Shown one piece after another: positions 656 to 21,843 of a stretch of 21,843 bases of DNA. The notes under the pieces were generated by a model. That model ran no database searches. It saw only the letters and a program-made list of their open reading frames with translations, and was not told the origin of the DNA. How positions within the stretch are numbered: the stretch's first letter is position 1; every line of letters starts with the position of its first letter. This DNA comes from a virus. The DNA lies in the IMG/VR virus record IMGVR_UViG_3300034198_010897, positions 1 through 21,843 of that record; one strand, given 5' to 3'. Position numbers and translations under genes: made by a program.

Positions 656-680
656 ACACTTTCCCATCGCATCTTTCACC

Positions 681-1082: not shown

Positions 1083-1095
1083 GTTATACGTTCGT

Positions 1096-1475: not shown

Positions 1476-1500
1476 CAGAACATAGATAATAGTGTATGAT
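1472..1500 (+). promoter_or_regulatory. near-consensus sigma70-type promoter
   Basis: TTGACA at 1472-1477 is a perfect -35 box, followed by exactly 17 bases and TATGAT at 1495-1500 (five of six to TATAAT). T4-like cyanophage early genes are known to use host vegetative-type promoters. The predicted start (about 1507) leaves only some 16 bases before the ATG at 1523, with no Shine-Dalgarno. The -35 overlaps the stop codon of the upstream gene. Confidence 0.7.
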
Positions 1501-1522
1501 AATGATGTAACAGCATTCTATT

Positions 1523-2725: not shown

Positions 2726-2726
2726 G

Positions 2727-2756
2727 AAAAATGACTCATTTTGAGTCATTTTTTTG
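2727..2756 (+). terminator. rho-independent terminator
   Basis: AAAAATGACTCA (2727-2738) pairs with TGAGTCATTTTT (2742-2753) around a TTT loop, and the T-run continues to 2755. It closes the glycosyltransferase unit one base after the stop of the 42-aa frame. The A-rich left arm and T-rich right arm mean it may also work on the other strand. Confidence 0.9.
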
Positions 2757-2769
2757 TAAATAAATAAAT
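2757..2769 (+). promoter_or_regulatory. T4-like late promoter candidate for speD
   Basis: The stretch TAAATAAATAAAT contains ATAAATA at 2760-2766, the core of the T4-type late promoter known to be conserved in cyanomyoviruses. It lies right after the terminator and 37 bases before the speD ATG. The box is short and the DNA AT-rich, so chance matches are possible; position raises the odds. Confidence 0.5.
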
Positions 2770-2802
2770 TTTTTCATCAAAACTGAGTTGAAAAACATTT
2801 CA

Positions 2803-3129
2803 ATGGGTAAACACCTGCTTTTAGAGGTGTATAATGTCGATTTTAACCTAATTAATGACGTGGAATCGCTTCAAAACGTCATGATAAGAGGCATAAAACG
2901 AGCAAAAATGACGATTTTGAACACTTTTTCTCACTGTTTTTTGCCACAGGGGTGTACAGTTGTGATTGCTTTGTCTGAAAGTCATGTTTCTTGCCATACT
3001 TGGCCAGAAAATGGTTGTTTAGCGGTGGATGTATACACTTGTGGTGAAGGAAATCCCCGTCTTATCGCTCTTGAAATACTTAAATACCTTGATTCAGACT
3101 CATATTCTCTGCGCGAAGTCGAACGTTAA
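2803..3129 (+). CDS. speD: S-adenosylmethionine decarboxylase proenzyme (class 1B)
   Basis: This enzyme decarboxylates S-adenosylmethionine to give the aminopropyl donor for spermidine synthesis. The family cleaves itself at a Glu-Ser bond, turning the Ser into a pyruvoyl group. Here the motif ALSESHVSCHTWPENG gives E59-S60 as the cleavage site, H65 as the processing histidine and C80 (VYTCG) as the catalytic cysteine. The spacing (5 and 20 residues after the Ser) matches the short bacterial/archaeal enzymes such as that of Thermotoga maritima. At 108 residues it is slightly short but holds all key positions. I chose ATG 2803 over an in-frame TTG at 2788. speD is a known auxiliary metabolic gene in T4-like cyanophages. 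It stands between a terminator and the structural cluster, with a late-type box upstream, suggesting late expression. Confidence 0.93.
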   Translation: MGKHLLLEVYNVDFNLINDVESLQNVMIRGIKRAKMTILNTFSHCFLPQGCTVVIALSESHVSCHTWPENGCLAVDVYTCGEGNPRLIALEILKYLDSDSYSLREVER

Positions 3130-3448: not shown

Positions 3449-3468
3449 AGTAAAGAAATCTACCTAAA

Positions 3469-3870
3469 ATGGCAGTCACAAGGATATCACAGTCTTTTAA
3501 GGATATTAGTTTATCTTTTGATCCACATCCTGTGACAAAAGATCTACCTGTTCTTACAAATGAAAGAGCGACTATTCGTTCAATTCGTAATTTGGTTGAA
3601 ACAATACCAACTGAAAGATTTTTTAACTCGACAATTGGATCAAGCGTAAGAAGAAGTTTATTTGATTTTGTTGATTATGCAACTGCTTCTGTTATTCAAG
3701 ATCAAATTATTGAAGTCATTTCAAACTATGAACCAAGGGTTACAAATACAGTTGTTCAGGTAGATCCAATTCCAGATTTAAATGAATTTGAAATTACTAT
3801 AACATTTGATATTATTGGACAAGAAATTCCAACCCAACAGTTTTCATTCATATTAGAGGCAACAAGATAA
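3469..3870 (+). CDS. gp25: baseplate wedge subunit gp25
   Basis: The 133-residue length is almost that of T4 gp25 (132). The protein has the GPW/gp25 family layout: an N-terminal strand region, the element NERATIRSIRNLVETIPTER (about residues 31-50) leading into F-N-S-x-I-G, a helix with SLFDFVD, then the conserved EPR at about residues 92-94 before paired C-terminal strands ending in a hydrophobic strand. In T4, gp25 joins gp6 and gp53 in the wedge core and is thought to contact the sheath starting layer. The next gene is gp6, one base after the stop, as expected for a shared transcript. A late-type box lies just upstream. The Shine-Dalgarno is weak. Confidence 0.92.
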   Translation: MAVTRISQSFKDISLSFDPHPVTKDLPVLTNERATIRSIRNLVETIPTERFFNSTIGSSVRRSLFDFVDYATASVIQDQIIEVISNYEPRVTNTVVQVDPIPDLNEFEITITFDIIGQEIPTQQFSFILEATR

Positions 3871-3871
3871 A

Positions 3872-5812
3872 ATGCCTTTTACTAAGTTCGCTAATCTAGA
3901 TTTTGATCAGATAAAGACCTCTATCAAAGACTATCTCCGTGCAAATTCAAATTTCACGGATTTTGACTTTGAGGGGTCTAATTTTTCTGTTTTAATTGAT
4001 ACTCTTGCTTATAACACTTACATTACTGCATTTAACTCGAACATGGTTGTAAATGAATCCTTTTTGGATTCTGCAACATTGAGAGAAAATGTAGTTTCAT
4101 TGGCAAGAAATATAGGATATGTGCCCAGATCAAGAACTGCAGCGAGTGCAGTTGTATCTTTTACCATACAACCAAAGACTTCAACCCAGACAGTTACTTT
4201 ACAAGCGGGTTTAGTGTGTACTGGGAGTTCTGGTGGAACATCTTATATTTTTTCAGTTCCAGACAACACAACGGCAAGTGTTGTTAATGGTGTTGCCTCG
4301 TTTAATAATCTAACCGTCAAGCAAGGAACATTTTTAAAAAAAGAATTTACTGTTGATGGATCTTTAGATCAACGTTTCATATTAGAAAACTCATACATTG
4401 ACACGTCCACAATTCGTGTTTATGTAAAAGGAACTGGAGACAGTGGACTTGGAAAACCATACACTCTTGTAGATAATATTTTTGAAGTTGATTCCACCTC
4501 AAAAATTTATTTGATTCAAGAGGTTAAGGATGAAAAGTATGAACTTCTTTTCGGTGATGGAGTTTTCGGCAAAAAACTTGAAAATAATGCTGTTATCACA
4601 GTAACTTACATTATCACAGACGGTAAAGATGGTAATGGTGCAAGTTCATTTACTTTTGCCGGAAGCGTAAAGAATGAGAATGATACTATAGAGGTTCCAA
4701 ATAATACAATAACGATTAGCACAATTCAATCTGCACAAAATGGATCCGACATTGAAAGTATTGATTCCATTCGAAGATTTGCTCCTAGATTATATTCTTC
4801 TCAATATAGAGCAGTCACCACAAGAGACTATGAGACAATTATAAAATCAAAGATATATCCAGAAACAGAATCTGTGTCTGTGGTTGGTGGAGAAGAACTA
4901 ACACCTCCCCAATATGGAAAAGTTTTGATTAGTATTAAACCAAAAAATGGTACATTTGTTTCAGATTTTAATAAACAAGAAATCAAAAATAAACTCAAGC
5001 AATATAGTGTTGCTGGTGTAAATCCTGAAATTGTAGATTTGAAAATATTGTATGTTGAAATAGACTCATCAATCTACTATAACTATGCACAGGTTTCTAG
5101 CGTAGAAAATTTAAAAACAAAAGTTATCAAATCTTTAACTTCTTACGCACAATCTACAGATCTAAATGCTTTTGGTGGTAGATTTAAGTATAGTAAAGTT
5201 TTACAGGTCATTGATAATACGGATACTGCAGTTACATCAAATATCACAAAGGTAATTATTAGAAGAGATTTAAAGGTAAACATTAATACTCCAACTCAAT
5301 ATGAAATTTGTTATGGAAATAAATTTCATATAAATCCTGCAGGAAAAAATATTAAGTCTACTGGATTTAATATTTTTGGTGTTACAGATACTGTATATTT
5401 TACAGATACTCCAAATACGGATTCCAATGGCAATCTTACTGGAACTGGAGTCATTTCGATTGTAAAACAAATTCCTGTTTTAGTAGGTGTTGGGTCTACC
5501 GCAACTCTTAAGACACCAGTTGTAGTTCAGTCTGCAGGAACTGTTGATTATAGTCTTGGAGAAATAAGACTTAATGCACTAACAATCACTTCAACTAAGT
5601 TGGAGCAAAATATAATTGAAATTCAAGCATTTCCAGAGTCTAATGATATTATTGGATTGAAGGATTTGTATTTGTCTTTTAGCATTTCAAAAAGCAAAAT
5701 AAATATGGTTAAAGACGTTATTGCTTCTGGTGATGACGTTTCTGGAGTAGTATTTTCTACTAAAGATTACTATAGATCTAGCTATTCGAACGGGGATTTA
5801 ACGAGGTCATAA
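3872..5812 (+). CDS. gp6: baseplate wedge subunit gp6
   Basis: At 646 residues the protein is close to T4 gp6 (about 660). gp6 dimers form the continuous ring that links six wedges around the baseplate hub. The N-terminus carries the conserved patch DFEGSNFSVLIDTLAYNTYI, where the chain folds on other wedge proteins. A baseplate-J-like region includes DSIRRFAPRLYSSQYRAVTT (about residues 298-317), which is followed by RDYE and then YGKVLISIKP. Both match the family. Position between gp25 and the giant gp7-position gene agrees with T4 order. The gene starts one base after gp25 and ends one base before the next ATG; the GAGG at 5803-5806 near its end is the next gene's ribosome binding site. 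The C-terminal third is rich in Gly, Ser and Thr strands. Confidence 0.93.
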   Translation: MPFTKFANLDFDQIKTSIKDYLRANSNFTDFDFEGSNFSVLIDTLAYNTYITAFNSNMVVNESFLDSATLRENVVSLARNIGYVPRSRTAASAVVSFTIQPKTSTQTVTLQAGLVCTGSSGGTSYIFSVPDNTTASVVNGVASFNNLTVKQGTFLKKEFTVDGSLDQRFILENSYIDTSTIRVYVKGTGDSGLGKPYTLVDNIFEVDSTSKIYLIQEVKDEKYELLFGDGVFGKKLENNAVITVTYIITDGKDGNGASSFTFAGSVKNENDTIEVPNNTITISTIQSAQNGSDIESIDSIRRFAPRLYSSQYRAVTTRDYETIIKSKIYPETESVSVVGGEELTPPQYGKVLISIKPKNGTFVSDFNKQEIKNKLKQYSVAGVNPEIVDLKILYVEIDSSIYYNYAQVSSVENLKTKVIKSLTSYAQSTDLNAFGGRFKYSKVLQVIDNTDTAVTSNITKVIIRRDLKVNINTPTQYEICYGNKFHINPAGKNIKSTGFNIFGVTDTVYFTDTPNTDSNGNLTGTGVISIVKQIPVLVGVGSTATLKTPVVVQSAGTVDYSLGEIRLNALTITSTKLEQNIIEIQAFPESNDIIGLKDLYLSFSISKSKINMVKDVIASGDDVSGVVFSTKDYYRSSYSNGDLTRS

Positions 5813-5813
5813 T

Positions 5814-8800
5814 ATGATACAAACGGGTTTTGAGTCTAGAATAAAAGTACAACAAATAATTGAAAATCAACTTCCAGAATTTATTATAGATGAAAGTCCA
5901 AAATCTGTTGACTTTTTAAAGCAGTATTATGCTTCTCAGGAATACCAAAGTGGTCCAACAGATATTGTTGAAAACTTAGATCAATATTTAAAACTTGATA
6001 ATCTAACACCAGAGGTTGTAGTTGGATTTACTACACTTTCCTCAGGAATCTCTTCGTCCGCATCGACAATTCAAGTTTCAACAACCAAAGGTTTTCCACA
6101 AAACTATGGTTTATTAAAAATTGATGATGAGATCATCACTTATACTGGACTAACTACAAATACATTTACAGGTTGTATTCGTGGTTTTTCTGGAATTACA
6201 AGTTATCATAAACAATTAAATTCTGAAGAGTTAGTTTTTTCAACATCAAACTCATCATCTCATATTGGATTCTCAACCGTTACCAACTTAAGTGTTCTTT
6301 TCCTAAAAGAATTTTACAATAAAATTAAATATTCTTTAACTCCAGGATTAGAAAGTAAAGAATTTGTTTCTAATTTAAATGTTGGAAACTTTATTAAAGA
6401 AGCAAGAACTTTATACGAGTCTAAAGGAACCGAAGAATCTTTTAGAATTCTTTTTAATATTTTATTTGGTGAAACCCCACAAGTAATTGATTTAGAGAAA
6501 TTCTTAGTCAAACCATCAGCATCAACTTATATTAGAAGAGCAGTTGTTATTGCTGATGCAATTTCTGGCGATCCTTTAAAATTACAAGGACAAACTATCT
6601 TTAAAAACAATGATACTGGTACTTCAGCATCTGTATCTGAAGTAGAATTAATTAGAAGAAAAGAAAAAACATATTATAAACTTTTACTTTTTATTGGTTA
6701 TGATGATACTTTCCCAACGATTACTGGAACTTTTAATATTACAGGGAGCACCAAAAATTTAGAATATGTTAGTGTAGGTAGTTCGGTTATCAGTGTAGAT
6801 TCAACTATAGGTTTTCCAAAATCTGGACTAATTTATAATGGAGAAACCGAAATTGCATATACAAACAAAAGTATAAATCAATTTTTTGGATGTTCTGGAG
6901 TAACCTCAGGAATTGCAACTGCATCGACGATATATTCTGAGGAAACTTATTATGGTTATGAGGATGGAGATACATCCAAAAAAGTTAAACTCAGACTTAC
7001 TGGTGTTTTATCTGATTATATACCAATTACAACAAATTCATCTATTTCTGAAGGTGAAGAGATTACTGTTAAAAATTTAGGTGAATTAATTAAAAATCCA
7101 CAATCTGATAAAACGTATAAAGAAATATTTGCAAATAGTTGGATTTATAATACAAGTTCAAGATTTTATATTGATTCTTTTTCTCCAGGATCAATATCTC
7201 AAGTTACATTGAGTAGTGATATTGATAAATCAAGTTTAAAGGTTGGGGACTATATTGATATTTTATATCGAGATTCTCAAACAATTGTAGCATCAAATTT
7301 AAGAATAACTTCTATTTCAGGCAAACAGATTTTTACATCACAGAGCTTTACTCTGTCTTCAGGATCAAACTATGATATTCGAAGAAAAATTAACCATGCA
7401 AGTAGTTCTTTAGTCCCATTAGAAGTTACCCCAATTATAGCAGAAATTCAAAATGTATATAATCAAAATAATGATTATATGTATGTGGCATCTAATTCAT
7501 TACCCGGTTATCAAGTAACAAAGTCTATCTTCTCATACAATGCTTCTGGTGTAAGTTCACAAGATTCAAATACTGGATTATATTCTAAAATTACATTTTC
7601 CGAAAAAGTATCATTTATAAGTGGAAATCAAATTTATTATAAACCATCTGGATCATCAATTTCTGGATTAAGTGAAGGTGTATACTACGTTGAAGTCTTA
7701 ACTGGACAGCAAGAAATAAGACTCTATGCTTCTAAAGAAGTCATAGGAACTTCAAATTATTTAAGTTTTGGAGAGTTAACTTCTGGAACTCATAATTTTA
7801 CTTTAAATACCCAAAAAGAAAAAGTATTATCACCTCAAAAAATACTTAGAAAGTTTCCTTTAGAAGTTAATATTGGAGATGGTGATTCTGATGCTACTGT
7901 CCCTGGATATGTTGGGATGTTAATTAATGGTGTAGAAATATCAAATTATAAATCTGGAAATAAAGTTTATTATGGTCCACTAGAATCAATTAAAGTTTTA
8001 AACGGCGGTTCTAAGTTTGATGTTATTAATCCACCACTACTAACATTATCATCTGGAATTGGATCTGTACAACCAGTAGTTAGCGGATCGGTAGAAAAAA
8101 TATATGTTGACCCTCAAGATTTTGATATAGATGTTGTAGTCTCTATTGCTCTTACTGGCGGAAATGGTCAAGGATCTTCCTTTGAACCAGTAATTGAAAG
8201 AAAAAGAAGAGAAATTAAATTTGATGCTAGACAGTTAGCATTTGGTGGTGGAGTTGATACTACACAAGAAACAATTACTTTCTTATCAAATCATAATTTG
8301 ATAAATGGTCAAGTAATTATCTATAGACCTGGAAATAATCCATCTCTAGGAATTGGAACTTATAAAGGATCCAATGCTTCTACAGGAAATACTTTAAAAG
8401 AAGAAACTCCATATTATACAAAATACATAAGTGACACTACAATTCAACTTTATCAAACACTTTCAGATTTTACTTCTGGTATTAACACAGTAGGTTTTAC
8501 TACTATTGGAACCTCTGGAATTCATAAATTTGTTACAGAACCTAAGAACACTTTAACTGGGATTAAAGTTTTAAATGGTGGATCAGGATATACCAATAGA
8601 AAACTGAGAGTTCTATCGACAGGTATTTCAACAATCCATAGCACAATAACATTTAATAATCATGGATTTAAAGATGGTGAATTAGTTACTTATTCAAATA
8701 CTCAAAATTCTATATCCGGTCTTTCAACAATCAAACAATATAATATTATTAAAATTGACAATAATCAATTTAGATTGGCAGATGCAGGAATAGGTGGAAC

Positions 8801-11800
8801 AATTACAAGTAATTATGATAGAAGAAAATATGTCAGTTTAGGTTCAACTGGAAGTGGATATCATATTTTCAACTATCCAGAAATATCTTTTAAAGTTGAA
8901 TATGGTGCTGTTGGTTTAGGTAGTACACAATTTAGGGGATCAATCAGTGCTATACCAATTATTAGAGGACAAATAATAGATGCGTATGTTTATGAGAAGG
9001 GATCAGATTATGGATCAACCGTTTTAGATTATCATAAGAAACCATCTATTTTAATTAAAAATGGGAAGAATGCCCAATTTAAACCAATCATCATTGATGG
9101 TGCAATACAAGACATTTCATTACAAAATAGTGGAACCGAATATTATTCAACTCCAGATGTTGTAGTTTCTGGTGTTGGAACGGGAGCAGTTCTTAGACCT
9201 GTTGTTGTAGATAACAAAATATCAGATTTAATTATCGTAAATGCTGGAGCAGGTTATTCTACAACAAATACCACCATTACTGTTGTTCCTTCTGGAAAAA
9301 ACGCGGTTTTTGATCCTCAAGTTAGATCTTTAACTATCAATAAAAACTTTTTATATAATAATGTTAATGATACTACCGTATCTTCAAATGAAATCATAGA
9401 ATCTTCCTATAATAATCTTCAGTATAGTATTTGTGGTTACTCAGACTTAGTTCAGACTGCTTTTAATGATAATGGATCATCTCATTCCCCAATAATTGGA
9501 TGGGCATATGATGGAAATCCAATTTATGGTTCTTATGGATATTCAAATCCAAAAGACAAGAACTCATCTCTGAAAAAATTAGTTTCTGGGTATACCTTAA
9601 ACACTGACAATATTATAAACAGACCTTCAGGATTTTCTAATGGATTTTTTATTGAAGATTATAATTTTACCAATTCTGGAGACTTGGATGAATATAATGG
9701 AAGATTTTGCGTTACTCCAGAATTTCCTGATGGGGTATATGCTTACTTTGCAACTTCTGTTATAGATTCTCAGAACAATGTTGTAGGAAGCTTTCCATAT
9801 TTTATTGGAAATAAGTATAGATCTAAGTTTATATCAGACAATCAAAGTTTGAATCAATCTTTTGATTTTAATAATTCAAATCTTGTAAGAAATACTTTTC
9901 CATATAAAATTAATGATAAGTATGCAGACAATGATTTTATCATTGAATCAAATGAAATTGTCAATCAAATTACTCGTGTTGAATCAGTTACTTCTGGATC
10001 TATTGAAAATTATGAAATAATTAATGCTGGTGATAATTATAAAATTAATGATAATCTTGTATTTGATGAGACAAAAACTGGCGGTGGAGGTCTCAGCGCA
10101 CAAGTTTCTGAAATTAAGGGTAAAAATATTGTCAATCTACAAACATCTAAAATATCATATGACGATGCTGTTTTTGTTTGGGACAATGGTAATAAAATTA
10201 AAGTAAAAGTTTCGCCAAGACATGACTTACAAAATTTAGATTATGTCAATATATCGGGATTTTCCACTTCTCTGTCAACACTAAATGGTTTTCATCAGAT
10301 TGGAGTTACTACCCAATCATCAACCTTAATTAAAGAAATACCTTCTTCTGGTATTGTAACCGACATTTATGTTTCCAATATACCAGAAAATATTTCTATA
10401 GGTAGTAGCATAGGAATTGGAACAGAAACATTATCAATTTTAAACATTTTTAGTGTTCAAAATGTATTAAGGGTTCTCAGAGGACTGACGGGGACATCTC
10501 ATACTACAACTACACTTGTGTATTTTGTTCCTGATACATTTACAATTAATAAATCTGTTAATTATTTTGATTCTAAAATTAATGATTTGGTTTATTTTAA
10601 TCCCACACAATCAGTTGGTGTAGGAAGCACATCTGGTATAGGAATCGCAGTTACATTTAATGTTGGTATACAGACCAATAATATAATATCCGTACCAACT
10701 CAATCAATTTATTTACCAAATCATCCATTCTATACTAATCAAGAAGTAACACTAACAAAACCTTCATCTGCATCTGCAATATCTGTAGCGAATACATCAC
10801 AGAGTGCATCATTCAATTTGCCTATAAGTGGTAACAGTCAAAATGTTTATATTATTAGAAAATCTGTAGATCATATTGGAATTGTAACTCAAATTGGATT
10901 GACAACTTCAACTAATGGTCTATTCTTCTTATCAAATGGAACGAATAACTATCAATATTCAATACAGTCCAACTTTAGTCAAATTGTTGGTGATATTGAA
11001 AAGATTACTACCATAGTTTCTGTTTCTACTTCTCATAATTTATCATCTGGAGATAATATAAACCTTTATGTCAAACCAAGTTTGACAGTTGGTATTGGAA
11101 CATCAACATCGGTAAAATTAAAGAGAGATTTATTAACAAACTATGTTTTAGCAAATCCAATAGGATTTAATTCTACAGCAATTAATACATCTAAGAGTAC
11201 TTTTAATATTACTTCTCATGGATTAAAAACTGGCGATAAAATTAAGTATGATGCAAATCAATTAATATCTGGACTGTCAACTGGTTTTTATTATGTTTAT
11301 AAAGTAGATAATAATACTTTTAAACTATCAGAAACTTATATTGATGCATATAAAACTGTACCACCAAATACTGTAAGCATAGCAAGTACTGGTGGAACAT
11401 CACAGACAATTTCTCTTGTCAATCCACCACTAACATCTATTAAAAATAATAATTTAGTGTTTGACATAAGTGATTCATCATTGTCTGGATACAAACTCAA
11501 AATATTTTATGATAATAACTTTAAAGATGAATTTGTTTCAACTGGTTCTACGAACACTTTTTCAACAATTGGAGTTGGAACTTGTGGCGTATCAACTAAT
11601 GCATCTCTGACAATTAATTACAGCAAAGAACTTCCAACAAGACTATTTTATGCTTTAGAAAAATCTGGATATATAAGCACAGCGGATAAAGAAGTTGAAA
11701 GATACTCCGAAATTAGTTTTGTTGATAGTTACTATCAACAGGGGTCATATAAAGTTTCTGGAATAGGAACGACAACATTTAATATATCATTAAAAACTTC

Positions 11801-14800
11801 TCCAGAAAAAGATTCTTATACTGAGTCAGAGTGTGATACTTTAGAATATACAACAAATTCAACATCTGCTTCTGGTGGAGTTTCAAAAGTAAGAACTATT
11901 TCTCCTGGAGTAAACTTTAAAAAACTACCAGTCTTTAAAGAAATTGAATCGGATAATGGTACGGGTGCATACATTGTTCCAACATCTGATTTTATTGGAA
12001 AAGTAAATCAAATTAGAATTGTAAATGAAGGATTTGAATATTCATCCGATAAAACTTTAAGACCAGAAGCTTCTATACCAAAATTATTAACAATACAAGA
12101 TTCTCAGAGAATTACTGATGTTCAGGTTGTAAATGGTGGAAAAAATTATACTTCTTCTCCAGATTTAGTGATTGTTAATCCTGATACAGGTAAAAAAATT
12201 GATTCTGGTCTATTAGTTGCAAATTACTATGGAAATTCAATATTATCAGTTTCTGTTAAAGTTGAACCAAAGGGATTACCATCTTCAGTAGTCCAAATTA
12301 AGTCCATCAACAATACAAATGGCGTAGGGATTCAAACCATAAAAACCTCATCATCTGGAATTGTAACATGTGTCTTAGTTACTCCTATTTCTGGATTTGG
12401 TACTGAACCATTCTCAGTTGGAGATAGAATTTTTGTAGAGGGAATTCAAAAATATGGAACTGATGGTGACGGATTCAATTCTGAAAATTATGGATACCAA
12501 TTCTTTACTGTATCATCTTATTTGAATGGAGGCACAACTGCACCTAGAGAGTTAGAATATAATTTATCTGGTTTATCAACAAATGTTGGTATAGCAAAAA
12601 CGATTCAGGATTCTTTTGGAATTATTATTAATTCTTCTAATTATCCACAGTTTAGTGTTTCACAAACTTTTTCAAACTTTATTTTTGGTGAAATTCTAGA
12701 AGTTTATGTTGGAAATACTTTTATAGAACAAGATTTAAGAATTGTTGAATCAAATCAAAATTACATTAAAGTTTCTGGATCATATAATTTAGAAGTTAAT
12801 CAAATTATTAGAGGCACACAATCTGGTTCTTTGGCAACAATTAATACTATCAATGAATCAACAGGAAAATTTGGTGTTGGTTATGCATCGACCCAAAGAA
12901 TAGGTTGGGATGATAATATTGGAGTACTTAATGATGATACTCAAGTAATTCAAGATAACAATTATTATCAAAATCTTTCTTACTCTGTAAAGAGTAATCA
13001 AGAATGGGTTAATATTGTAAGTCCAGTAAATGATCTACTCCACATTAGTGGATTGAAAAACTTTGCAGATACTCAAGTTATTGAAAATGTTGGAGTAGGA
13101 ACCACTTTTGTAACTGATTATACACTATCATTATATGACATAATTGAAGAAAATAGAGTTGATACTATCAACAATTATGATATGGTTTTAGATGTTGATT
13201 TAGTTGGTGGTTTATCTAGATTTTTAAAATTCAAAAATAAAAAATTGGCGGATTACATAGAATGTCTTACCAATAGAGTTCTTGAAATTGATGATATTAG
13301 TGCAGAATTTTCAAATAGTGATCAAGAAATTGAACCATCTCTAAAAGTAGATGAAATTACACCATCCAAAAAATTCAATAAGTACTTAATTCAAATATCT
13401 GATAAAGATTATTCAAATTTCCAGTTTACAGAATTAGTCCTTTTGAATAATAATGACCCAGTAGATCCAGATATTTTTACTCTGGAAAGAGGCACTTTAA
13501 GTACAGGAGTTTCAACTGAAACTGCATATACATCCAATTTACTTGGAGATTTGTATGGAGAAATTGATGAATTGGGAAATCATTATTTAAAGTTTGATCC
13601 TACCGATCCTTATAATACCACATATAACATAAAGTATTCTAATATTTCTTTTGATAATTATAATACTGGAATTGGAACTGAATCAATTGGATTTGTAAGT
13701 CTAACTGGCATTACTTCAACAATAGGGGTTGGTTCAACAGCAATTTTATTAGAAAAACCAAAATCACTTGTTGAGTCTAGTTTTTCAGAAATTCAGTTAA
13801 TTCCTCCTACCACAAATGAAATGAATTATGTTGAGATTTTCTTAGATCATGATGGTACAAATACAAATATATCTGAGTTTTATTTTGAAAGTTCTGATGG
13901 TTATAGTTCTAATTTTATTGGATCATTTGGAGCTTCTATAAGTGGAAATATTTTATCATTAAATTATACCAACACATCCAACGATTCAGTCACCATTAGA
14001 TCCAAAAATATTGGATTTGGTACAACTGCAGTTGGAGTTGGAACATATAGATTTAAAGCATATGGACAACCAGATGATAATGAAAGAACAATTAAATATA
14101 CATCTTCTTTTGCAAACGTATCTTCATCTTCTACAATAACATCATTTGATAAAAACACTTTTAGTTCAGTAAAATCTTTGATAAAAGTAAGCATTGGAGA
14201 AACAAGTGCTTTACATCAGGTTATGCTAGTATCTGATTCAAGTAATGTTTATACTCTACAATATCCATTTTTAGCAGTAAACTCTTCAAGTGGAATTGGT
14301 ACTTTTGGGGGAGAGATATCTGGATCTAATGTTTCTCTAAAGTTTTATCCAAATGCGGAATTTTCCGGAACATTTGAAATATTGAATTTTAATCAGTCTT
14401 TCTATAAAGAAAATGATTATGTCACAGCAAATGCGCCATTAGATTTAACCTATGGAAATATTACTGAGACAATTGGAGTTTCTAAGTACTATGCAATTAA
14501 TAGTAATGAATTGAATAGATTAGACTTTGAATTGAATTATCAGGGAACTCCAATCTTCATGAAAACATTTGATCCATCTGATACAAATGTTTTAAATTCT
14601 TCCACTGGAGAATTTACAATTACGAATCATTTCTTTAACACGGGTGAAGAATTAATTTATAGACCAAATTCAACATTTATTGGAGTTGCAGCAACTTCTG
14701 TTGGAATTGGATCAACGCTAAACCATGTTGGAGTAGTTACTAACATATTACCCAGAACGGTATATGCAATTAGAGTTAATAACGATAAGTTTAAAATATC

Positions 14801-17729
14801 AACAAGAAAAGAATTTGCAACTTCTGGAATTGCAGTAACATTTACATCTTTGGGATCTGGAAACGCACATGAATTTGAAATGGTTAAAAAGAATGAAAAG
14901 TCAATTATCTCAATTGATAATATCATTCAATCCCCAATTGCATATTCATTGGTCACTCACACTTTAAATAATAATACTCAAATAAGTGCTTCATCTACAG
15001 TTTTTGCTTTAAGTGGAATATCATCAATTCGTCTTGGAGATATTTTGAAAATTGATAGTGAGTACATGAAAGTGGTTAATGTTGGTTTAGGTACAACATA
15101 TTCGGGACCTATATCTTTTGCTGGGACATTCCCACTTGTAAATGTCTCTAGAGGTTTTGTTGGTAGTTCTGCTACTACACACCCAAATCTATCTCAAGTT
15201 GATCTTTATAGGGGAGCATTTAATATTGTTAAGAGCGATGTTTATTTTACAAATCCTCCAAAGGGAAGTTTGGACGATCAATTATTTGCAGACCTTGATA
15301 ACTTATCAGAATCTAGATCATATTTTAATGGTAGAGTATTCTTGAAAAAAGATTACACAACTAATCAAATTTATGATAATATTTCAGAAAGATTTACTGG
15401 AATAGGACAAACTTATACCTTAACAGTTGGTGGCGGAAATACAGTTGGTTTGGGTACAACTGGAGGAAATGGAATTGTTTTAATTAATGGAATATATCAA
15501 ACACCATCTACTCAAAATAATGCAAATAATAACTTTAGAATCATAGAAAATACTTCCGTTGGAGTTAGCACAATTGTATTTTCTGGAATTACTTCATCAA
15601 ATGGTTCAGTTGTAGTTTCTCAATCTGATATAAACATAAATCAACTTCCTAGAGGTGGAATGATTGTATCTTTAGGATCAACACCTGGATTAGGATATGC
15701 GCCATTAGTAGGAGCGTCTGTAACTGCAATACTTGGTATAGGTGGATCAATTACTTCAATTGGTATAGGAACCACTGGAAATTGGGGATCTGGATATAGA
15801 AATCCAGTTTCAGTAGCAGTTACAGAATATGGTCACTCAGGATCAGCGGCAACTATTACAGCATCTGTAGGAGCTGGGGGAACGCTATCATTCACAGTTG
15901 TGGGTGGTGGAACAGGATATGTAAATCCCCAAATTAATGTTTCATCACCAAGTTATGAAAATCTACCAGTTATTGGTGTTTCTAGACTAAGCGTTGGATC
16001 AACAACTGACTGTGGAACAGGTTTATTGATAAATGTTGAAGTTGGCGCAAGTTCTACCGTAGGAATAGGTTCTACTTTATTTGAAGTTAAAGGATTTAAA
16101 GTTACAAGAAATGGTTATGGATTTAGACCAGGAGATGTAGTTAAAGCAGTAGGTTTAGTAACCGATAAAGGTATTTCACAACCAATATCAGAGTTTCAGT
16201 TAACAGTTTTAGAAACGTTTAGTGATTCATTCTCTGCTTGGCAATTTGGAGAATTAGATTACATTGATTCAATTGCGGCACTTCAAGATGGCGCTAGAAA
16301 GAGATTCCCACTTTATTACAATTCTCAATTATTAAGTTTTGAAAAAGGTTCTGATGCAGAATCCCAATTAATTGATTTTGATTCTTTATTAGTTATTTTT
16401 ATTAACGGTATACTTCAAAAACCAAAAATTGCATATGAGTTTAGTGGTGGTACATCATTCACGTTTAGTGAACCACCTAAACCAGAAGACAAAGTTTCAA
16501 TTTATTTTTACAGAGGAAGTTCTCAAGATAGTAGATCAGTTAATGTAAATGAAACTATAAAAATAGGTGACGATGTAAGAGTTTACAGTAACAATGAATA
16601 TCTTGGCATAACAACAACACAAAATTCTAGAGTAGTTACTGATATTGTTACTTCTGATAAAATACAAACTAATCTTTATATGGAGAATGGAATAGATACA
16701 TTAATTGAAAAACCATTGTATTGGACAAAACAAAAAGTTGATAAAGTTGTTGATGGTGAAATAATATCCAAGTCAAGAGATTCTATAGAACCACAAATTT
16801 ATCCAACAGCAAAAATAATTAAAGATTTATCAACCACTAATAATGAACTATTTGTTGATAATGCACAATTCTTCAATTATGAAGGTTTGCCATCTTTAGA
16901 CATTGATTTTGACGCATTAATAGTATCTGGTGCAGCAGATCCAGTATCAGCAGCAGTGACAGCAGTTGTTTCTGCTGCTGGAACAATACAATCGCTTTCA
17001 ATAGTAAATGCTGGTAGTGGATATACGGGTTCATCCATAACTGTAAAAATTTCTGCTCCTTCATATGTCGGTGTTGGTGTAGGAACAACTGCCACTGCTA
17101 CTATTTCAATTTCAGGTGGATCTCTAACAACTCCTATTTCAATAACTAATCCTGGACTTGGTTACAGTCAATCAAGACCACCTCAGGTCATAGTTCCTTT
17201 ACCAGATCCAACTTATGAAAATGTCAGTTCTGTTACTACATTAGAAGGATTCTCTGGAAAAATAACAGGAATTGCGACTGCAGTAGGTGTTGGTACAGCA
17301 CTTGCTATTAAATTCACTTTAGATAGTTCTTTAGCACCATTTACTGGATTATCAGTTGGTTATCCTGTTTATATTTTCAATACTTCTGTTGGAAGTGGTG
17401 TAACTTCAATTTATGCACGTGACAATCAAATAGTTGGAATTGGAACTACATGTTTAGATAATGTGTACAATGTTAGCGCATTTAATTCAACAACTGGAAT
17501 TATGACCTGCAACATTGTTTCAACATCATCTACAATTGGAATTGCAACAACAGGTTCAATTGTTGGACAAATATCATGGGGAAGGTTGTCTGGATTTACA
17601 AGATCTTCTTCTCCAATTTCTATTGGAGTTTCTGGATACACTATAAACTCGGGATTAACAACATTCCCAACTATTCAAAGAAGAGGGTATGGTCTCAGAG
17701 ACATTGGACCCATCAAAAAGACTTTGTAA
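5814..17729 (+). CDS. giant modular baseplate protein in the gp7 position, 3971 aa
   Basis: One uninterrupted frame of 3971 codons. Residues about 20-45 (LPEFIIDESPKSVDFLKQYY) and 196-222 (EARTLYESKGTEESFRILFN) resemble the C-terminal part of T4 gp7, which has a similar SKG/STKG helix block. With its place between gp6 and gp8, this suggests a gp7-type wedge function, though T4 gp7 is only about 1030 residues. The rest is Gly/Ser/Thr-rich and built from repeats: N-A/G-G-x-G-Y modules (at 730, 921, 1105, 1143, 2107, 3732, 3779 and others); H-G-L-x-x-G-D...YYV...FKL modules (597, 826, 948, 1799, 2936); and IDDE...RG modules (about 75, 319, 1517, 3061). A YHYH-like domain occupies about 1195-1340 (GWAYDGNPIYG at 1229; YAYF at 1309). 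Start: ATG with GAGG seven bases upstream. No signal peptide or membrane span. It probably reaches out from the baseplate, perhaps for adsorption. Confidence 0.85.
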   Translation: MIQTGFESRIKVQQIIENQLPEFIIDESPKSVDFLKQYYASQEYQSGPTDIVENLDQYLKLDNLTPEVVVGFTTLSSGISSSASTIQVSTTKGFPQNYGLLKIDDEIITYTGLTTNTFTGCIRGFSGITSYHKQLNSEELVFSTSNSSSHIGFSTVTNLSVLFLKEFYNKIKYSLTPGLESKEFVSNLNVGNFIKEARTLYESKGTEESFRILFNILFGETPQVIDLEKFLVKPSASTYIRRAVVIADAISGDPLKLQGQTIFKNNDTGTSASVSEVELIRRKEKTYYKLLLFIGYDDTFPTITGTFNITGSTKNLEYVSVGSSVISVDSTIGFPKSGLIYNGETEIAYTNKSINQFFGCSGVTSGIATASTIYSEETYYGYEDGDTSKKVKLRLTGVLSDYIPITTNSSISEGEEITVKNLGELIKNPQSDKTYKEIFANSWIYNTSSRFYIDSFSPGSISQVTLSSDIDKSSLKVGDYIDILYRDSQTIVASNLRITSISGKQIFTSQSFTLSSGSNYDIRRKINHASSSLVPLEVTPIIAEIQNVYNQNNDYMYVASNSLPGYQVTKSIFSYNASGVSSQDSNTGLYSKITFSEKVSFISGNQIYYKPSGSSISGLSEGVYYVEVLTGQQEIRLYASKEVIGTSNYLSFGELTSGTHNFTLNTQKEKVLSPQKILRKFPLEVNIGDGDSDATVPGYVGMLINGVEISNYKSGNKVYYGPLESIKVLNGGSKFDVINPPLLTLSSGIGSVQPVVSGSVEKIYVDPQDFDIDVVVSIALTGGNGQGSSFEPVIERKRREIKFDARQLAFGGGVDTTQETITFLSNHNLINGQVIIYRPGNNPSLGIGTYKGSNASTGNTLKEETPYYTKYISDTTIQLYQTLSDFTSGINTVGFTTIGTSGIHKFVTEPKNTLTGIKVLNGGSGYTNRKLRVLSTGISTIHSTITFNNHGFKDGELVTYSNTQNSISGLSTIKQYNIIKIDNNQFRLADAGIGGTITSNYDRRKYVSLGSTGSGYHIFNYPEISFKVEYGAVGLGSTQFRGSISAIPIIRGQIIDAYVYEKGSDYGSTVLDYHKKPSILIKNGKNAQFKPIIIDGAIQDISLQNSGTEYYSTPDVVVSGVGTGAVLRPVVVDNKISDLIIVNAGAGYSTTNTTITVVPSGKNAVFDPQVRSLTINKNFLYNNVNDTTVSSNEIIESSYNNLQYSICGYSDLVQTAFNDNGSSHSPIIGWAYDGNPIYGSYGYSNPKDKNSSLKKLVSGYTLNTDNIINRPSGFSNGFFIEDYNFTNSGDLDEYNGRFCVTPEFPDGVYAYFATSVIDSQNNVVGSFPYFIGNKYRSKFISDNQSLNQSFDFNNSNLVRNTFPYKINDKYADNDFIIESNEIVNQITRVESVTSGSIENYEIINAGDNYKINDNLVFDETKTGGGGLSAQVSEIKGKNIVNLQTSKISYDDAVFVWDNGNKIKVKVSPRHDLQNLDYVNISGFSTSLSTLNGFHQIGVTTQSSTLIKEIPSSGIVTDIYVSNIPENISIGSSIGIGTETLSILNIFSVQNVLRVLRGLTGTSHTTTTLVYFVPDTFTINKSVNYFDSKINDLVYFNPTQSVGVGSTSGIGIAVTFNVGIQTNNIISVPTQSIYLPNHPFYTNQEVTLTKPSSASAISVANTSQSASFNLPISGNSQNVYIIRKSVDHIGIVTQIGLTTSTNGLFFLSNGTNNYQYSIQSNFSQIVGDIEKITTIVSVSTSHNLSSGDNINLYVKPSLTVGIGTSTSVKLKRDLLTNYVLANPIGFNSTAINTSKSTFNITSHGLKTGDKIKYDANQLISGLSTGFYYVYKVDNNTFKLSETYIDAYKTVPPNTVSIASTGGTSQTISLVNPPLTSIKNNNLVFDISDSSLSGYKLKIFYDNNFKDEFVSTGSTNTFSTIGVGTCGVSTNASLTINYSKELPTRLFYALEKSGYISTADKEVERYSEISFVDSYYQQGSYKVSGIGTTTFNISLKTSPEKDSYTESECDTLEYTTNSTSASGGVSKVRTISPGVNFKKLPVFKEIESDNGTGAYIVPTSDFIGKVNQIRIVNEGFEYSSDKTLRPEASIPKLLTIQDSQRITDVQVVNGGKNYTSSPDLVIVNPDTGKKIDSGLLVANYYGNSILSVSVKVEPKGLPSSVVQIKSINNTNGVGIQTIKTSSSGIVTCVLVTPISGFGTEPFSVGDRIFVEGIQKYGTDGDGFNSENYGYQFFTVSSYLNGGTTAPRELEYNLSGLSTNVGIAKTIQDSFGIIINSSNYPQFSVSQTFSNFIFGEILEVYVGNTFIEQDLRIVESNQNYIKVSGSYNLEVNQIIRGTQSGSLATINTINESTGKFGVGYASTQRIGWDDNIGVLNDDTQVIQDNNYYQNLSYSVKSNQEWVNIVSPVNDLLHISGLKNFADTQVIENVGVGTTFVTDYTLSLYDIIEENRVDTINNYDMVLDVDLVGGLSRFLKFKNKKLADYIECLTNRVLEIDDISAEFSNSDQEIEPSLKVDEITPSKKFNKYLIQISDKDYSNFQFTELVLLNNNDPVDPDIFTLERGTLSTGVSTETAYTSNLLGDLYGEIDELGNHYLKFDPTDPYNTTYNIKYSNISFDNYNTGIGTESIGFVSLTGITSTIGVGSTAILLEKPKSLVESSFSEIQLIPPTTNEMNYVEIFLDHDGTNTNISEFYFESSDGYSSNFIGSFGASISGNILSLNYTNTSNDSVTIRSKNIGFGTTAVGVGTYRFKAYGQPDDNERTIKYTSSFANVSSSSTITSFDKNTFSSVKSLIKVSIGETSALHQVMLVSDSSNVYTLQYPFLAVNSSSGIGTFGGEISGSNVSLKFYPNAEFSGTFEILNFNQSFYKENDYVTANAPLDLTYGNITETIGVSKYYAINSNELNRLDFELNYQGTPIFMKTFDPSDTNVLNSSTGEFTITNHFFNTGEELIYRPNSTFIGVAATSVGIGSTLNHVGVVTNILPRTVYAIRVNNDKFKISTRKEFATSGIAVTFTSLGSGNAHEFEMVKKNEKSIISIDNIIQSPIAYSLVTHTLNNNTQISASSTVFALSGISSIRLGDILKIDSEYMKVVNVGLGTTYSGPISFAGTFPLVNVSRGFVGSSATTHPNLSQVDLYRGAFNIVKSDVYFTNPPKGSLDDQLFADLDNLSESRSYFNGRVFLKKDYTTNQIYDNISERFTGIGQTYTLTVGGGNTVGLGTTGGNGIVLINGIYQTPSTQNNANNNFRIIENTSVGVSTIVFSGITSSNGSVVVSQSDININQLPRGGMIVSLGSTPGLGYAPLVGASVTAILGIGGSITSIGIGTTGNWGSGYRNPVSVAVTEYGHSGSAATITASVGAGGTLSFTVVGGGTGYVNPQINVSSPSYENLPVIGVSRLSVGSTTDCGTGLLINVEVGASSTVGIGSTLFEVKGFKVTRNGYGFRPGDVVKAVGLVTDKGISQPISEFQLTVLETFSDSFSAWQFGELDYIDSIAALQDGARKRFPLYYNSQLLSFEKGSDAESQLIDFDSLLVIFINGILQKPKIAYEFSGGTSFTFSEPPKPEDKVSIYFYRGSSQDSRSVNVNETIKIGDDVRVYSNNEYLGITTTQNSRVVTDIVTSDKIQTNLYMENGIDTLIEKPLYWTKQKVDKVVDGEIISKSRDSIEPQIYPTAKIIKDLSTTNNELFVDNAQFFNYEGLPSLDIDFDALIVSGAADPVSAAVTAVVSAAGTIQSLSIVNAGSGYTGSSITVKISAPSYVGVGVGTTATATISISGGSLTTPISITNPGLGYSQSRPPQVIVPLPDPTYENVSSVTTLEGFSGKITGIATAVGVGTALAIKFTLDSSLAPFTGLSVGYPVYIFNTSVGSGVTSIYARDNQIVGIGTTCLDNVYNVSAFNSTTGIMTCNIVSTSSTIGIATTGSIVGQISWGRLSGFTRSSSPISIGVSGYTINSGLTTFPTIQRRGYGLRDIGPIKKTL

Positions 17730-17734: not shown

Positions 17735-17742
17735 TATAAATA
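17735..17742 (+). promoter_or_regulatory. T4-like late promoter for gp8
   Basis: TATAAATA, the full T4 late consensus octamer, lies five bases after the giant gene's stop and 19 bases before the gp8 ATG. It is in a 32-base intergenic gap, the largest within the baseplate cluster, which supports a real promoter and separate late transcription of gp8 and the genes after it. Confidence 0.75.
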
Positions 17743-17761: not shown

Positions 17762-19330
17762 ATGTCTGCACTTGTAACAGATCAGTTTAGAATATTAAAT
17801 GCGACAAATTTTGTCAATTCTGTAAGTGATTCTTCAAATTCTTATTATGTATTTGTTGGATTATCAAATGCAACTGCTACTGGATTTGGTAGAAATAGTT
17901 CGTGGGATACTACACCACCAAATCCAACAGATAATTTTGATTATTTGAATCATTATGAAACGACAATGCTTTTTGGCAAAAAAATAACGAGTGCAAATAT
18001 TAGAAGAGTAATCAGAAAAATTACTTGGACTTCTGGACAACAATATGACATGTATAGACCTGATTATAGCACAGTTAACAGGTCATCATCTGGTTCTTTA
18101 AGATTATACGATGCAAATTATTATGTTTTAAATTCAGATTATAGAGTTTACATTTGTATTGATAATGGATCAAGTGGAATTAAAACAACAGCAAACTCTT
18201 CACAAGTTGAACCAACTTTTACAGACTTAGAACCATCAAAATCAACAGATGGATATACATGGAAATATCTTTATACAGTCTCACCGAATGATATCATAAA
18301 GTTTGATTCTACAGAATACATTACTGTACCTAATGATTGGCAAACATCTACGGATGCCCAAATTACTGCAGTTAGGGAAAATGGAAATTCTACAATTAAT
18401 GAAAATCAAATAAAAAAAGTTTTTATTAAAAATGCAGGTAATGGATATGTATCACAGTCTGCAAAGTCTTGCAATTTAGTGGGAGATGGATCTGGTGGAA
18501 AAGTTTCGGTTGACATTGATTCAACTGGAAAAATAAGTGATATAACAGTTACATCTGGGGGTAAAAATTATACTTTTGCAATAGTTGATTTGGGAACTTC
18601 GTCAGCAAATATTCCAACTACTTATGCAGAATTAGTTCCAATCATACCTCCATCAAAAGGTCATGGTTTTGATATCTATCAGGAATTAGGTGCGGATAAA
18701 GTTTTATTATACGCAAGATTTGATGATTCTACAAAAGATTTCCCAGTAGATACTAAATTTGCTCAGGTTGGAATTCTTAAAAATCCAACAATTTATGATT
18801 CAACAGGAATAAGCACTACTGTATATAATTCGAATGATTTTTCGGCAGTTTATGCCATGAGATTTAGTGGAACTCCATCTGGAACAATTTCTGTTGGAGA
18901 TAAAATTCAACAATCAGTAACTGGTGGAATTGCTTATGGTTATGTAGTTTCTTATGACTCAGAAACAAAAGTTCTCAAATATTCCAGAGATAGATCTTTA
19001 TATTTAAATGGTGGATCTGGATCAACGTATGCTGATTTTGTAGGTGTATCATCATTCTTTGATAGTTCTGGGACTAATTTATCTTTTAATTCATCAGGAA
19101 CAGTATCAAAAGTTGGTGGCGGGTTTAATGCATCGGTAGATAGTTCATTCTCTGGAATTACTACAACAATTACAAATAAAATTGTAAATCTTGGAATAGA
19201 ATTTACAAATGGACTTGCCAATCCTGAGATAAATAGTAAGTCAGGTAATATAATTTACATTGATAACAGACCAACTGTTACAAGAAATTTAAGACAAAAA
19301 GAAGACGTTAAAATTATCCTGGAATTTTAA
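17762..19330 (+). CDS. gp8: baseplate wedge subunit gp8
   Basis: The N-terminal part follows T4 gp8: an opening AxVTxxFR block (LVTDQFRILNATNFVNSV), a SYYVFVGL strand, then W...PPNPTD. A central segment DGYTWKYLYTVSP, followed by EYITVP, matches the T4 DGYVWEYLF...EYIVVP block. The last 28 residues contain IIYIDNRP and end DVKIILEF, matching the T4 ending with MENRPP and a final ILFTF. T4 gp8 (334 residues) is a homodimer in the outer wedge bound to gp7 and gp10. This version is 522 residues. Much of the excess is an insertion from about residue 217 with N-A-G-N-G-Y (224-229) and S-G-G-K-N-Y (265-270), the repeat type also seen in the giant protein. A perfect late-promoter octamer precedes it and the next gene follows after three bases. 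Confidence 0.93.
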   Translation: MSALVTDQFRILNATNFVNSVSDSSNSYYVFVGLSNATATGFGRNSSWDTTPPNPTDNFDYLNHYETTMLFGKKITSANIRRVIRKITWTSGQQYDMYRPDYSTVNRSSSGSLRLYDANYYVLNSDYRVYICIDNGSSGIKTTANSSQVEPTFTDLEPSKSTDGYTWKYLYTVSPNDIIKFDSTEYITVPNDWQTSTDAQITAVRENGNSTINENQIKKVFIKNAGNGYVSQSAKSCNLVGDGSGGKVSVDIDSTGKISDITVTSGGKNYTFAIVDLGTSSANIPTTYAELVPIIPPSKGHGFDIYQELGADKVLLYARFDDSTKDFPVDTKFAQVGILKNPTIYDSTGISTTVYNSNDFSAVYAMRFSGTPSGTISVGDKIQQSVTGGIAYGYVVSYDSETKVLKYSRDRSLYLNGGSGSTYADFVGVSSFFDSSGTNLSFNSSGTVSKVGGGFNASVDSSFSGITTTITNKIVNLGIEFTNGLANPEINSKSGNIIYIDNRPTVTRNLRQKEDVKIILEF

Positions 19331-19333: not shown

Positions 19334-21843
19334 ATGGCTCAAAAAACTAATCTTAATGTAAGTCCATATTTTGATAATTTTGCCGAAAAGGATCTTGGCG
19401 CAAGAGATAAGAATTATTACAAGGTTCTTTTTAATCCAGGAAAACCTATACAGGCAAGAGAGTTAAATACTCTTCAATCAATATTACAGGATCAAATAGA
19501 AACCTTTGGTAGTCATATTTTTAAAGAGGGATCATTAGTAATTCCAGGAAATATTACTTATGATGCTCAATTTAATGCTGTCAAATTGAATTCCCAACAA
19601 TATGGAGTTGAAATAAGTTCATATTTGGCAAATTTTGTAGGAAAAAAGATAACGGGACAAATATCTGGAATTACTGCAACTGTACAGAAGATACAACTTC
19701 CTAATGCAGGTTTAGGAATTGAATATCCAACTCTGTATGTAAAATATTTAAATTCAGATTCAAATTTTGAAATAAATCCATTTCAAGATAATGAACCTTT
19801 ATATGCTTCAGAAACAGTTGGGACAATTATTACTGGCACTCCATTTGCATCGACTATAGCAACAAACTCAACCGCAACTGGTTCTGCAGCATCTATTGGT
19901 GAAGGTGTATATTTTATTAGAGGAACTTTTGTTAGAGTCCCCAAGCAAACATTAATTTTAGATTATTACACAAATACTCCATCCTACAGAGTAGGGTTGA
20001 GAGTAGATGAACAAATCATAACACCAAAAGATGATGCTACATTATATGACAATGCTGCAGGATTTTCAAATTACGCTGCTCCTGGAGCAGACAGATTTAA
20101 AATATCTTTAACCCTTACAAAAAAATTATTAACAGATACGTCCGATGTTGATTTTGTAGAATTATTAAGACTTAAAGATGGTGCAATTAAAAAGGTTGAA
20201 GTAAAATCTAGTTATTCTTTAATTAGAGATTATCTAGCACAAAGAACATATGATGAGTCTGGAGATTATGTAGTTACTCCATTTCAATTTTCACTTAATA
20301 ACTCATTAAATAATAGACTTGGAAATGACGGTTTATTTTTCAGCAATGAAAAAACAGATCAAGGCAATACACCATCAGATGATTTACTGTCTATAAAGTT
20401 TTCTCCAGGAAAAGCATATGTAAGAGGATATGATATTGAGAAGACAGGAATAGAAATTGTAGATGTTCCAAAACCTAGAACAAAACAAACGGTCTCTTCA
20501 GTAAACATACCTTTTGAAATGGGTAATTTATTGAGAGTTAATAATGTAACAGGAGCTCCTAAACAAAAACAGGAAATCTATTTTCAAAATACCAGAAAAA
20601 ATAGTACAACTGTTTCATCTGGATCAACAATTGGATCTGCTAGAGTCTATAGTTTTAATGTAACAGATGCCGCACACACTGGTTCATCTACAAATTGGGA
20701 CTTATATCTTTATGATATTCAAACTTATACTCAAATTACATTAAATCAGTCAGTTTCTTCTATACAGGTTCCCGCAACTTCTTTTATAAAAGGTAAAAAT
20801 AGTGGTGCTAGTGGATATGTAGTTTCTGCTGGTGACGGATCAGCAGTCATTAACATTAGACAAAAATCTGGGACATTTATAGTTGGAGAACCAATTCTGA
20901 TTAACGGATCTGATTTATATCCAAGAACAATATCGATTATTAAAACATATGGCATTGAAGATATCAAGTCTTTACACCAACCAACTGCAGTTTCCGGATT
21001 TTCTACTGCCTTTTTATCAGATGCTCAATTAGATAGAGTTTCTAGATCAGAAATTATTACAATAACTCCAGGAAGTGGAGGTATAAGTACAGCAACAGTA
21101 GCATTACCAGCATCATTTACCGGAATTAAAACCGATAATATTATTAGATATCAAAGATCTGGTGTAACAACAGAAGTTTATAACAGAGTTATTTCAGTAT
21201 CATCTTCATTAAATTCTTTAACACTAGAAGCAGTTACATCTGTTGCTGGTGTTTGTGATGGTTCATTACCTAGTTCTACATTTAGTGGTTCATATGCAGT
21301 TGGTGTACCAAAACTTAAAAATGAGCAAAAAGGATTTTTATATGCAGAACTACCAAACTCTAACGTTGCTTCAACAAACTTAACCTCATCCACAATTACA
21401 TTTGGAGCACAATCAAATACATCTTTCACACCATCTTCAAATAGTTTAACCGTAAGCACAGGACAATTTAATCTTGGTATTAATTCTACAGGAACTAAGT
21501 TTCAAGCATTTGATGAAGAAAGATATTCTATTTTTTATTCTGATGGAACTATAGAAAATTTAACATCAGATAAAGTCACTTTAAGTGCCAATTCGGATCA
21601 AGTTACTTTTTCAAATATTCAAAATAAACAAGTTGCAGCAGTTAATGCTACATTTGTTAAAACAGGAATACAAAGTAAAGTTAAACAATTTAATAGGTCA
21701 AAATTAATAAATGTTATCTTATCAAAAGATAGTCAATCTGGAACGGTAATTAATACGTCAATTAATGATGGTCTTACTTACAATCAATTTTATGGTTTAA
21801 GAGTTCAAGATGAAGAAATATCTTTAAATTTTCCAGATGTTGT
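19334..21843 (+). CDS. DUF4815-type virion structural protein, 3' end missing
   Basis: An open frame begins at the ATG at 19334, three bases after the gp8 stop, and runs beyond the window end: 836 full codons without a stop. The N-terminus has the signature GKPIQARELNTLQSILQDQI (about residues 36-55), then FGSHIFKEGSLVIPGN. Near residue 356 comes PGKAYVRGYDIE. These match the DUF4815 family, which I recall directly after gp8 in cyanomyoviruses as a virion structural protein of unknown exact role. Its place corresponds to the T4 gp9/gp10 region, so it may be an outer baseplate or fibre-attachment protein. The later part is Ser/Thr/Gly-rich and beta-type, with modules such as GKNSGASGYVVSAGDGSAVI that resemble fibre domains. 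The + frame is clear; the antisense frames at 20746-20967 and 21178-21459 are shadows. Confidence 0.85.
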   Translation, partial: MAQKTNLNVSPYFDNFAEKDLGARDKNYYKVLFNPGKPIQARELNTLQSILQDQIETFGSHIFKEGSLVIPGNITYDAQFNAVKLNSQQYGVEISSYLANFVGKKITGQISGITATVQKIQLPNAGLGIEYPTLYVKYLNSDSNFEINPFQDNEPLYASETVGTIITGTPFASTIATNSTATGSAASIGEGVYFIRGTFVRVPKQTLILDYYTNTPSYRVGLRVDEQIITPKDDATLYDNAAGFSNYAAPGADRFKISLTLTKKLLTDTSDVDFVELLRLKDGAIKKVEVKSSYSLIRDYLAQRTYDESGDYVVTPFQFSLNNSLNNRLGNDGLFFSNEKTDQGNTPSDDLLSIKFSPGKAYVRGYDIEKTGIEIVDVPKPRTKQTVSSVNIPFEMGNLLRVNNVTGAPKQKQEIYFQNTRKNSTTVSSGSTIGSARVYSFNVTDAAHTGSSTNWDLYLYDIQTYTQITLNQSVSSIQVPATSFIKGKNSGASGYVVSAGDGSAVINIRQKSGTFIVGEPILINGSDLYPRTISIIKTYGIEDIKSLHQPTAVSGFSTAFLSDAQLDRVSRSEIITITPGSGGISTATVALPASFTGIKTDNIIRYQRSGVTTEVYNRVISVSSSLNSLTLEAVTSVAGVCDGSLPSSTFSGSYAVGVPKLKNEQKGFLYAELPNSNVASTNLTSSTITFGAQSNTSFTPSSNSLTVSTGQFNLGINSTGTKFQAFDEERYSIFYSDGTIENLTSDKVTLSANSDQVTFSNIQNKQVAAVNATFVKTGIQSKVKQFNRSKLINVILSKDSQSGTVINTSINDGLTYNQFYGLRVQDEEISLNFPDV

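Follow-up and report, generated by a model that had tools for sequence, protein, structure and literature searches.

The question raised by this locus is what a single protein of 3,971 residues does between the baseplate wedge genes gp6 and gp8 of a virus, and whether it is a gp7 at all. The window, meaning the whole stretch of DNA that was analysed, is an entire virus record of 21,843 bases, and the genome itself is a fragment. One ATG-started frame on the plus strand (5814-17729) encodes the 3,971-aa protein, which has a calculated mass of 430 kDa. The frame takes up 54.6% of the window and its product is 3.85 times as long as T4 gp7 (1,032 aa). This agrees with a first-pass annotation that had described a 3971-residue frame filling over half of the window and nearly four times the size of T4 gp7.

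Genomic setting of the giant frame

At the base composition of the window, the chance of a stop-free run of this length is about 10^-146, and the giant protein is conserved along its length in about 30 relatives; the frame is therefore a real gene. A Shine-Dalgarno-like GAGG (5803-5806, plus strand) lies within the end of gp6, 7 nt before the gp7 ATG. The gene order is that of a cyanophage baseplate operon, entirely on the plus strand: gp25 (sheath initiator/wedge subunit, 3469-3870), the wedge subunit gp6 (3872-5812), the giant baseplate wedge protein gp7, the wedge subunit gp8 (17762-19330) and a VrlC-like virion protein (DUF4815, phrog_358; 19334-21841), which is cut by the window end. The nearest phage records are cyanophages, with Synechococcus phage S-SRM01 (Kyanoviridae) at the top.

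A site resembling the T4-type late promoter, ATAAATA, is present between gp7 and gp8 (17736-17742, plus strand). The window holds five such sites (2760, 3442, 5699, 17736 and 19229), all of them on the plus strand. Those at 2760, 3442 and 17736 lie no more than about 30 nt from a gene start, and those at 5699 and 19229 are found inside the preceding gene, approximately 100-115 nt before the next start. Since five sites are fewer than the 15 expected by chance, only their placement is suggestive and not their number. Just upstream of gp25, the window encodes the S-adenosylmethionine decarboxylase SpeD (speD, 2788-3129), which S-SRM01 has at the same position. The G+C content is 38-41% in this upstream stretch and about 30% in gp7 (window positions 1-3000 compared with 5000-15000), and the upstream stretch may be a region of different origin.

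The proteins at the gp7 position share a single conserved core and make up a size series that runs from 503 aa to 6,619 aa. The non-cyanophage set comprises Ps15 (503 aa), IG49 (881 aa), Melnitz (896 aa), phiM12 (1,007 aa) and T4. The other lengths are 1,454 aa in S-CRM01, 3,048 aa in S-PM2, 3,895 aa in S-SRM01, 4,454 aa in P-HM2, 5,195 aa in P-SSM2, 6,076 aa in Syn9 and 6,619 aa in S-SZBM1. A single frame of 3,569-4,162 aa was present in 28 of the 30 IMG/VR relatives, and in the annotated relatives inspected the giant frame follows directly after gp6. The baseplate architecture had at first been considered unusual; the giant gp7 is instead the norm in Kyanoviridae, the copy in the window is mid-sized, and several of its relatives are already annotated as gp7. 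The architecture is ordinary for this lineage.

The gp7 core

Homology identifies the giant frame as encoding gp7, the wedge protein, in a T4-like cyanophage of the Kyanoviridae. Residues 2-3330 matched PHROG 2885, 'baseplate wedge subunit' (E=0, 3,755.9 bits), and GenBank labels the gp7 proteins of relatives 'baseplate wedge initiator'. A core profile was built from the N-terminal 360 residues of cyanophage homologues and four shorter homologues from other phages. In hhalign, this profile matched T4-type gp7 with 96% probability (E 2e-9), compared with 0.2% for the reversed control, and direct profile alignment placed window residues ~190-310 on T4 gp7 residues 724-823. The shorter homologues alone (phiM12, Ps15, Melnitz, IG49) matched T4 gp7 residues ~645-830 with 97% probability. 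Compared with single T4 proteins, the core matched gp7 with 77%, and gp6, gp8, gp9, gp10, gp11 and gp12 gave no match (each 0.4% or less). Moreover, one search with phiM12 gp7 matched both cyanophage and Straboviridae gp7 genes and thus bridges the two groups.

The first-pass annotation had likened the N-terminus to the C-terminal domain of T4 gp7 and had proposed a profile search as the check. These profile searches found the gp7 relation, which is specific to gp7 among the seven T4 proteins, and the gp7 call therefore stands; the likeness can be refined to the first ~310 residues and T4 residues ~645-830. Profiles were required to see the relation because single-sequence searches were uninformative: neither the N-terminus nor the full-length protein had a credible phmmer hit in the PDB, and the blastp hits among T4 proteins were no better than chance. 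There was also no match in NCBIfam.

On the evidence of these alignments, the conserved gp7 core occupies the N-terminal ~310 residues. It consists of two helical halves and a beta domain and is encoded between gp6 and gp8. The first helical half (residues ~8-65) is encoded at 5835-6008. An inserted beta module with FPG module 1 (residues ~70-150, 6021-6263) splits the core, and the second helical half with the ESKGTEESFRILF motif follows together with the beta domain (residues ~155-310, 6276-6743), the part that is homologous to T4 gp7 ~724-823; the core ends at about residue 310. All of these features lie on the plus strand. The N-terminal ~640 residues of T4 gp7 had no counterpart in the giant protein, and blastp matches to T4 residues 1-640 were not beyond chance. 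This part ahead of the core, a trait of the Straboviridae (T4-type) subfamily, is absent, and the cyanophage protein begins at the core.

The AlphaFold model of residues 1-360 was of low confidence (mean pLDDT 62.7). With this model, Foldseek ranked T4 gp7 first among 350,542 PDB chains, a weak match (E 0.035, probability 0.16) in which the top chain was taken as gp7 from its 1,004 resolved residues and the presence of 5IV5 among the gp7 entries. Ranks 2-5 were phage tailspikes and a chain from a Vibrio phage VP1 capsid entry, which a beta part of the model (residues 1-360, 5814-6893) weakly resembles.

Architecture and conservation of the arm

From residue ~312 onwards, the core is followed by an arm of approximately 3,600 residues, rich in Gly, Ser and Thr. 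The idea of a wedge anchor fused to a very long arm was thus supported by the profile matches, in the form of a gp7-type anchor with a very long C-terminal extension. Iterated profiles found 2 FPG, 10 GSGY and 8 HGF modules in the giant protein and none in shuffled sequences. Together the three types cover 1,024 residues, or 26% of the protein; the remainder is conserved and not recognisably repetitive by these module profiles, and repeats at the DNA level are short and weak. The description of the other ~3700 residues as repeat modules was thus overstated: because the modules cover only 26%, the arm combines modules with longer unique stretches in a mosaic and is not a repeat protein throughout.

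The arm, encoded on the plus strand, starts with FPG module 2 (residues 312-367, 6747-6914), which is followed by three single HGF modules (7581-7790, 8253-8513 and 8625-8861), three GSGY modules in a row (residues 1049-1163, 8958-9302) and a degenerate YHYH domain (residues 1204-1337, 9423-9824; Pfam PF14240). Three further HGF modules (residues 1625-1861, 10686-11396) precede the least conserved block of the protein (residues 2505-2904, 13326-14525). Two HGF modules (residues 2928-3115, 14595-15158) and a conserved C-terminal region (residues 3353-3971, 15870-17726) complete the arm. The C-terminal region was not matched by T4 gp6-gp12, T4 gp10 and gp12 did not match the full giant alignment, and the AlphaFold model of this region (pLDDT 66.9) had no credible fold match.

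In the 30 relatives, identity per 100 residues peaked at 0.62-0.74 over the first 400 residues, at 0.64 near the YHYH domain and at 0.65-0.69 over residues 3201-3500; it was lowest, 0.31-0.39, at residues 2501-2700. Whole blocks have been lost: residues 2505-2904 are missing in relative L383 and for the most part in L370, and 256 residues are missing at 2088 in L359. P-SSM2 has insertions totalling ~1,060 residues near window residues 3316-3351. The segment at ~3461-3610 is found again near the C-terminus of gp7 in P-HM2, Syn9 and S-SZBM1. Both ends are thus held while the middle changes, as the termini are conserved and blocks are gained and lost between them.

Two interrupted copies were noticed among the relatives. 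In L385 (from G004), the giant frame resumes in another reading frame after an apparent one-base indel at about residue 2,838, which is perhaps a sequencing or assembly error. In L386 (from G005), two in-frame stops are found at ~3,600-3,700, in the linker immediately ahead of the YHYH domain, and the interrupted stretch carries a late-promoter-like AATAAATA site; gp7 may have been split naturally into two genes here, or the interruption may be an error. In S-CRM01, the possibility that an arm has split off into the genes lying between its short gp7 and gp8 was rejected, as their 317- and 504-aa products had no blastp match to the window protein; nor did the S-CRM01 genome match the C-terminal region of the giant gp7. 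In the main text of the paper on S-TIM4 evolution, gp7 is not mentioned as one of the mutated genes.

Proposed role and comparison with known systems

The literature searched contained no structure of the giant protein or of any Kyanoviridae baseplate, and its role was considered from the structures of T4 and XM1. By homology, the core would pack with two copies of gp6 into a wedge heterotrimer, (gp6)2-gp7. Because of this packing in each wedge heterotrimer, six gp7 copies would ring the hub, and they would couple the baseplate periphery to sheath firing via gp25. In XM1, the helix-turn-helix core of gp17 joins two gp6-like subunits, and the tail spikes are held by an internal loop and the C-terminal tail of gp17 (PMC10457771). 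The non-core sequence of the giant protein likewise sits at two places: residues ~70-150 are inserted within the helical core, and from ~312 onwards the protein is extended at its C-terminus. This extension is composed of beta modules, the YHYH domain and unique regions and varies in length by gain or loss of whole blocks. The cyanophage gp7 would thus have grown at the places that correspond to those of XM1 gp17, a positional correspondence taken from the published description and not from an alignment. Since these two places hold tail spikes in XM1, the most likely inference is that the arm makes up a covalent, modular rim on the outside of the baseplate. Such a rim might dock fibres and other periphery proteins, or touch the host envelope, and might do the work that T4 gives to gp10, gp11 and gp12; cyanomyoviruses are without g10, g11 and g12 (PMC2984593). 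To this reading, a gp7 core that builds the wedge and an arm that forms the rim, we assign a probability of roughly 0.7.

A stronger version is tentative and in our view has the odds against it. In it, the outer baseplate of Kyanoviridae would have been rebuilt by fusion, with one covalent arm of 3,000-6,600 residues per wedge replacing the separate gp10, gp11 and gp12 and grown by block insertion at the two spike-holding places of a simpler gp7 orthologue. If so, six arms would add a modular rim of ~2.6 MDa to the baseplate of this phage.

That the giant protein can be part of the particle is suggested by S-SZBM1, in whose purified virions the 6,619-aa gp7 homologue was detected by LC-MS/MS (71 peptides, 13.5% coverage, peptide positions not given; PMC9146016). 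Virion proteomics had been named in advance as a check, and by this proxy the result is in favour of the protein.

The first-pass annotation had suggested that the arm might replace separate fibres. As a receptor-binding adhesin, an arm that is very long, Gly/Ser/Thr-rich and beta-modular and that carries one fast-changing block would not be out of place. Furthermore, the interval from VrlC to the neck gene, which houses fibre genes in other members, contains nothing but small genes in S-SRM01. However, S-SRM01 has a giant gp7 and also encodes, elsewhere in its genome, several separate proteins that match PHROG tail-fibre families, so that the replacement of fibres is not supported; this comparison covered the closest complete relative, S-SRM01, the genome in the window being a fragment. 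Moreover, the arm on the whole is well conserved (~50-65% identity per 100-residue bin) and not hypervariable, and it contains no collagen-type repeats. A mainly adhesive arm in place of fibres is therefore considered unlikely.

Still less probable is an arm that carries an envelope-degrading enzyme, in which the YHYH domain would serve as a metal-dependent hydrolase at the penetration step. The domain itself was clearly recognised (E 1.3e-28, 100.7 bits against a curated cut-off of 25), its region is conserved in relatives, as given above, and YHYH domains are predicted to be Zn-binding, metal-dependent hydrolases (PMC7824862). However, the two eponymous histidine columns, both conserved at 72% in 80 relatives from cellular contigs, are occupied by S1205 and C1207 in the giant gp7, and the third, upstream histidine of YHYH relatives has no equivalent. 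H1224 remains in the giant gp7, but several of its gp7 relatives have lost it. With the eponymous histidines lost and H1224 variable, the hydrolase reading is doubtful for this copy, and the residues present indicate that the YHYH domain of the giant gp7 is probably not an enzyme. YHYH domains were also seen elsewhere. S-SZBM1 has one in its gp7 and another in S-SZBM1_207 (L114 17634-19232), a protein of ~530 aa encoded between the giant gp7 and gp8. The contigs L387-L389, L394 and L395, assigned to bacterial or archaeal MAGs, encode YHYH and GSGY-type modules that closely resemble those of phage gp7; the contigs are probably of phage origin and misbinned.

Finally, cyanomyophages and pelagimyophages have been stated to have no T4 gp7, with VrlC apparently substituting for it (PMC7029224). 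This implies that VrlC took over the role of gp7 and that the giant frame is not a functional gp7 but a structural protein unrelated to it. We consider this very improbable, because among the T4 wedge and rim proteins tested only gp7 is matched by the core, and the giant frame follows gp6 in the manner described above. VrlC was rejected as a T4 gp7 homologue (profile match 0.2%). For the cyanophages examined, the published claim of gp7 absence is contradicted, since the large gene that follows gp6 encodes the gp7 core and VrlC is not the same protein.

The wedge-and-rim reading is retained. Taken alone, the giant protein is an ordinary member of its family. The family as a whole merits structural attention: its very large virion proteins are located where the contractile tail is triggered, in viruses that are widespread in marine and fresh waters. 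Beyond the size series, the analysis corrects the published statement that these phages lack T4 gp7 and provides an argument against an active enzyme in the YHYH domain of the giant gp7.

Among the named systems, the gp7 'baseplate wedge initiator' of S-SRM01 (QPX48159.1) is the closest. It has the same operon order as the window and aligns with the window protein over the whole length in one alignment (54% identity; 71.5% in core residues 1-260); it lacks ~53 residues near 3707 and is otherwise collinear. P-SSM2 gp7 (PSSM2_111, also labelled 'baseplate wedge initiator') shares the position, the core and the conserved C-terminal region at 42-48% identity and differs by the inserted residues described above. 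S-SZBM1_208 ('baseplate wedge initiator') and Syn9 gp101 ('putative fiber') share with the window the operon position, the gp7 core, the YHYH domain and the near-C-terminal segment. However, ~500 residues are inserted inside their helical core, compared with ~80 in the window, and the arm is mostly different. Stenotrophomonas phage Ps15 gp7 (L116 5989-7500) is barely more than a core and would be a useful minimal model for the wedge. T4 gp7 (PDB 5IV5, 5HX2) has a homologous core at ~645-830 and shares the gp6-gp7-gp8 neighbourhood, but carries ~640 residues before the core and ~200 after it, whereas the cyanophage protein has none before and ~3,600 after. XM1 gp17 (242 aa), a minimal gp7 orthologue with a cryo-EM structure, has the helix-turn-helix core without the giant arm, and in XM1 the tail spike is a separate protein, gp18 (PMC10457771).
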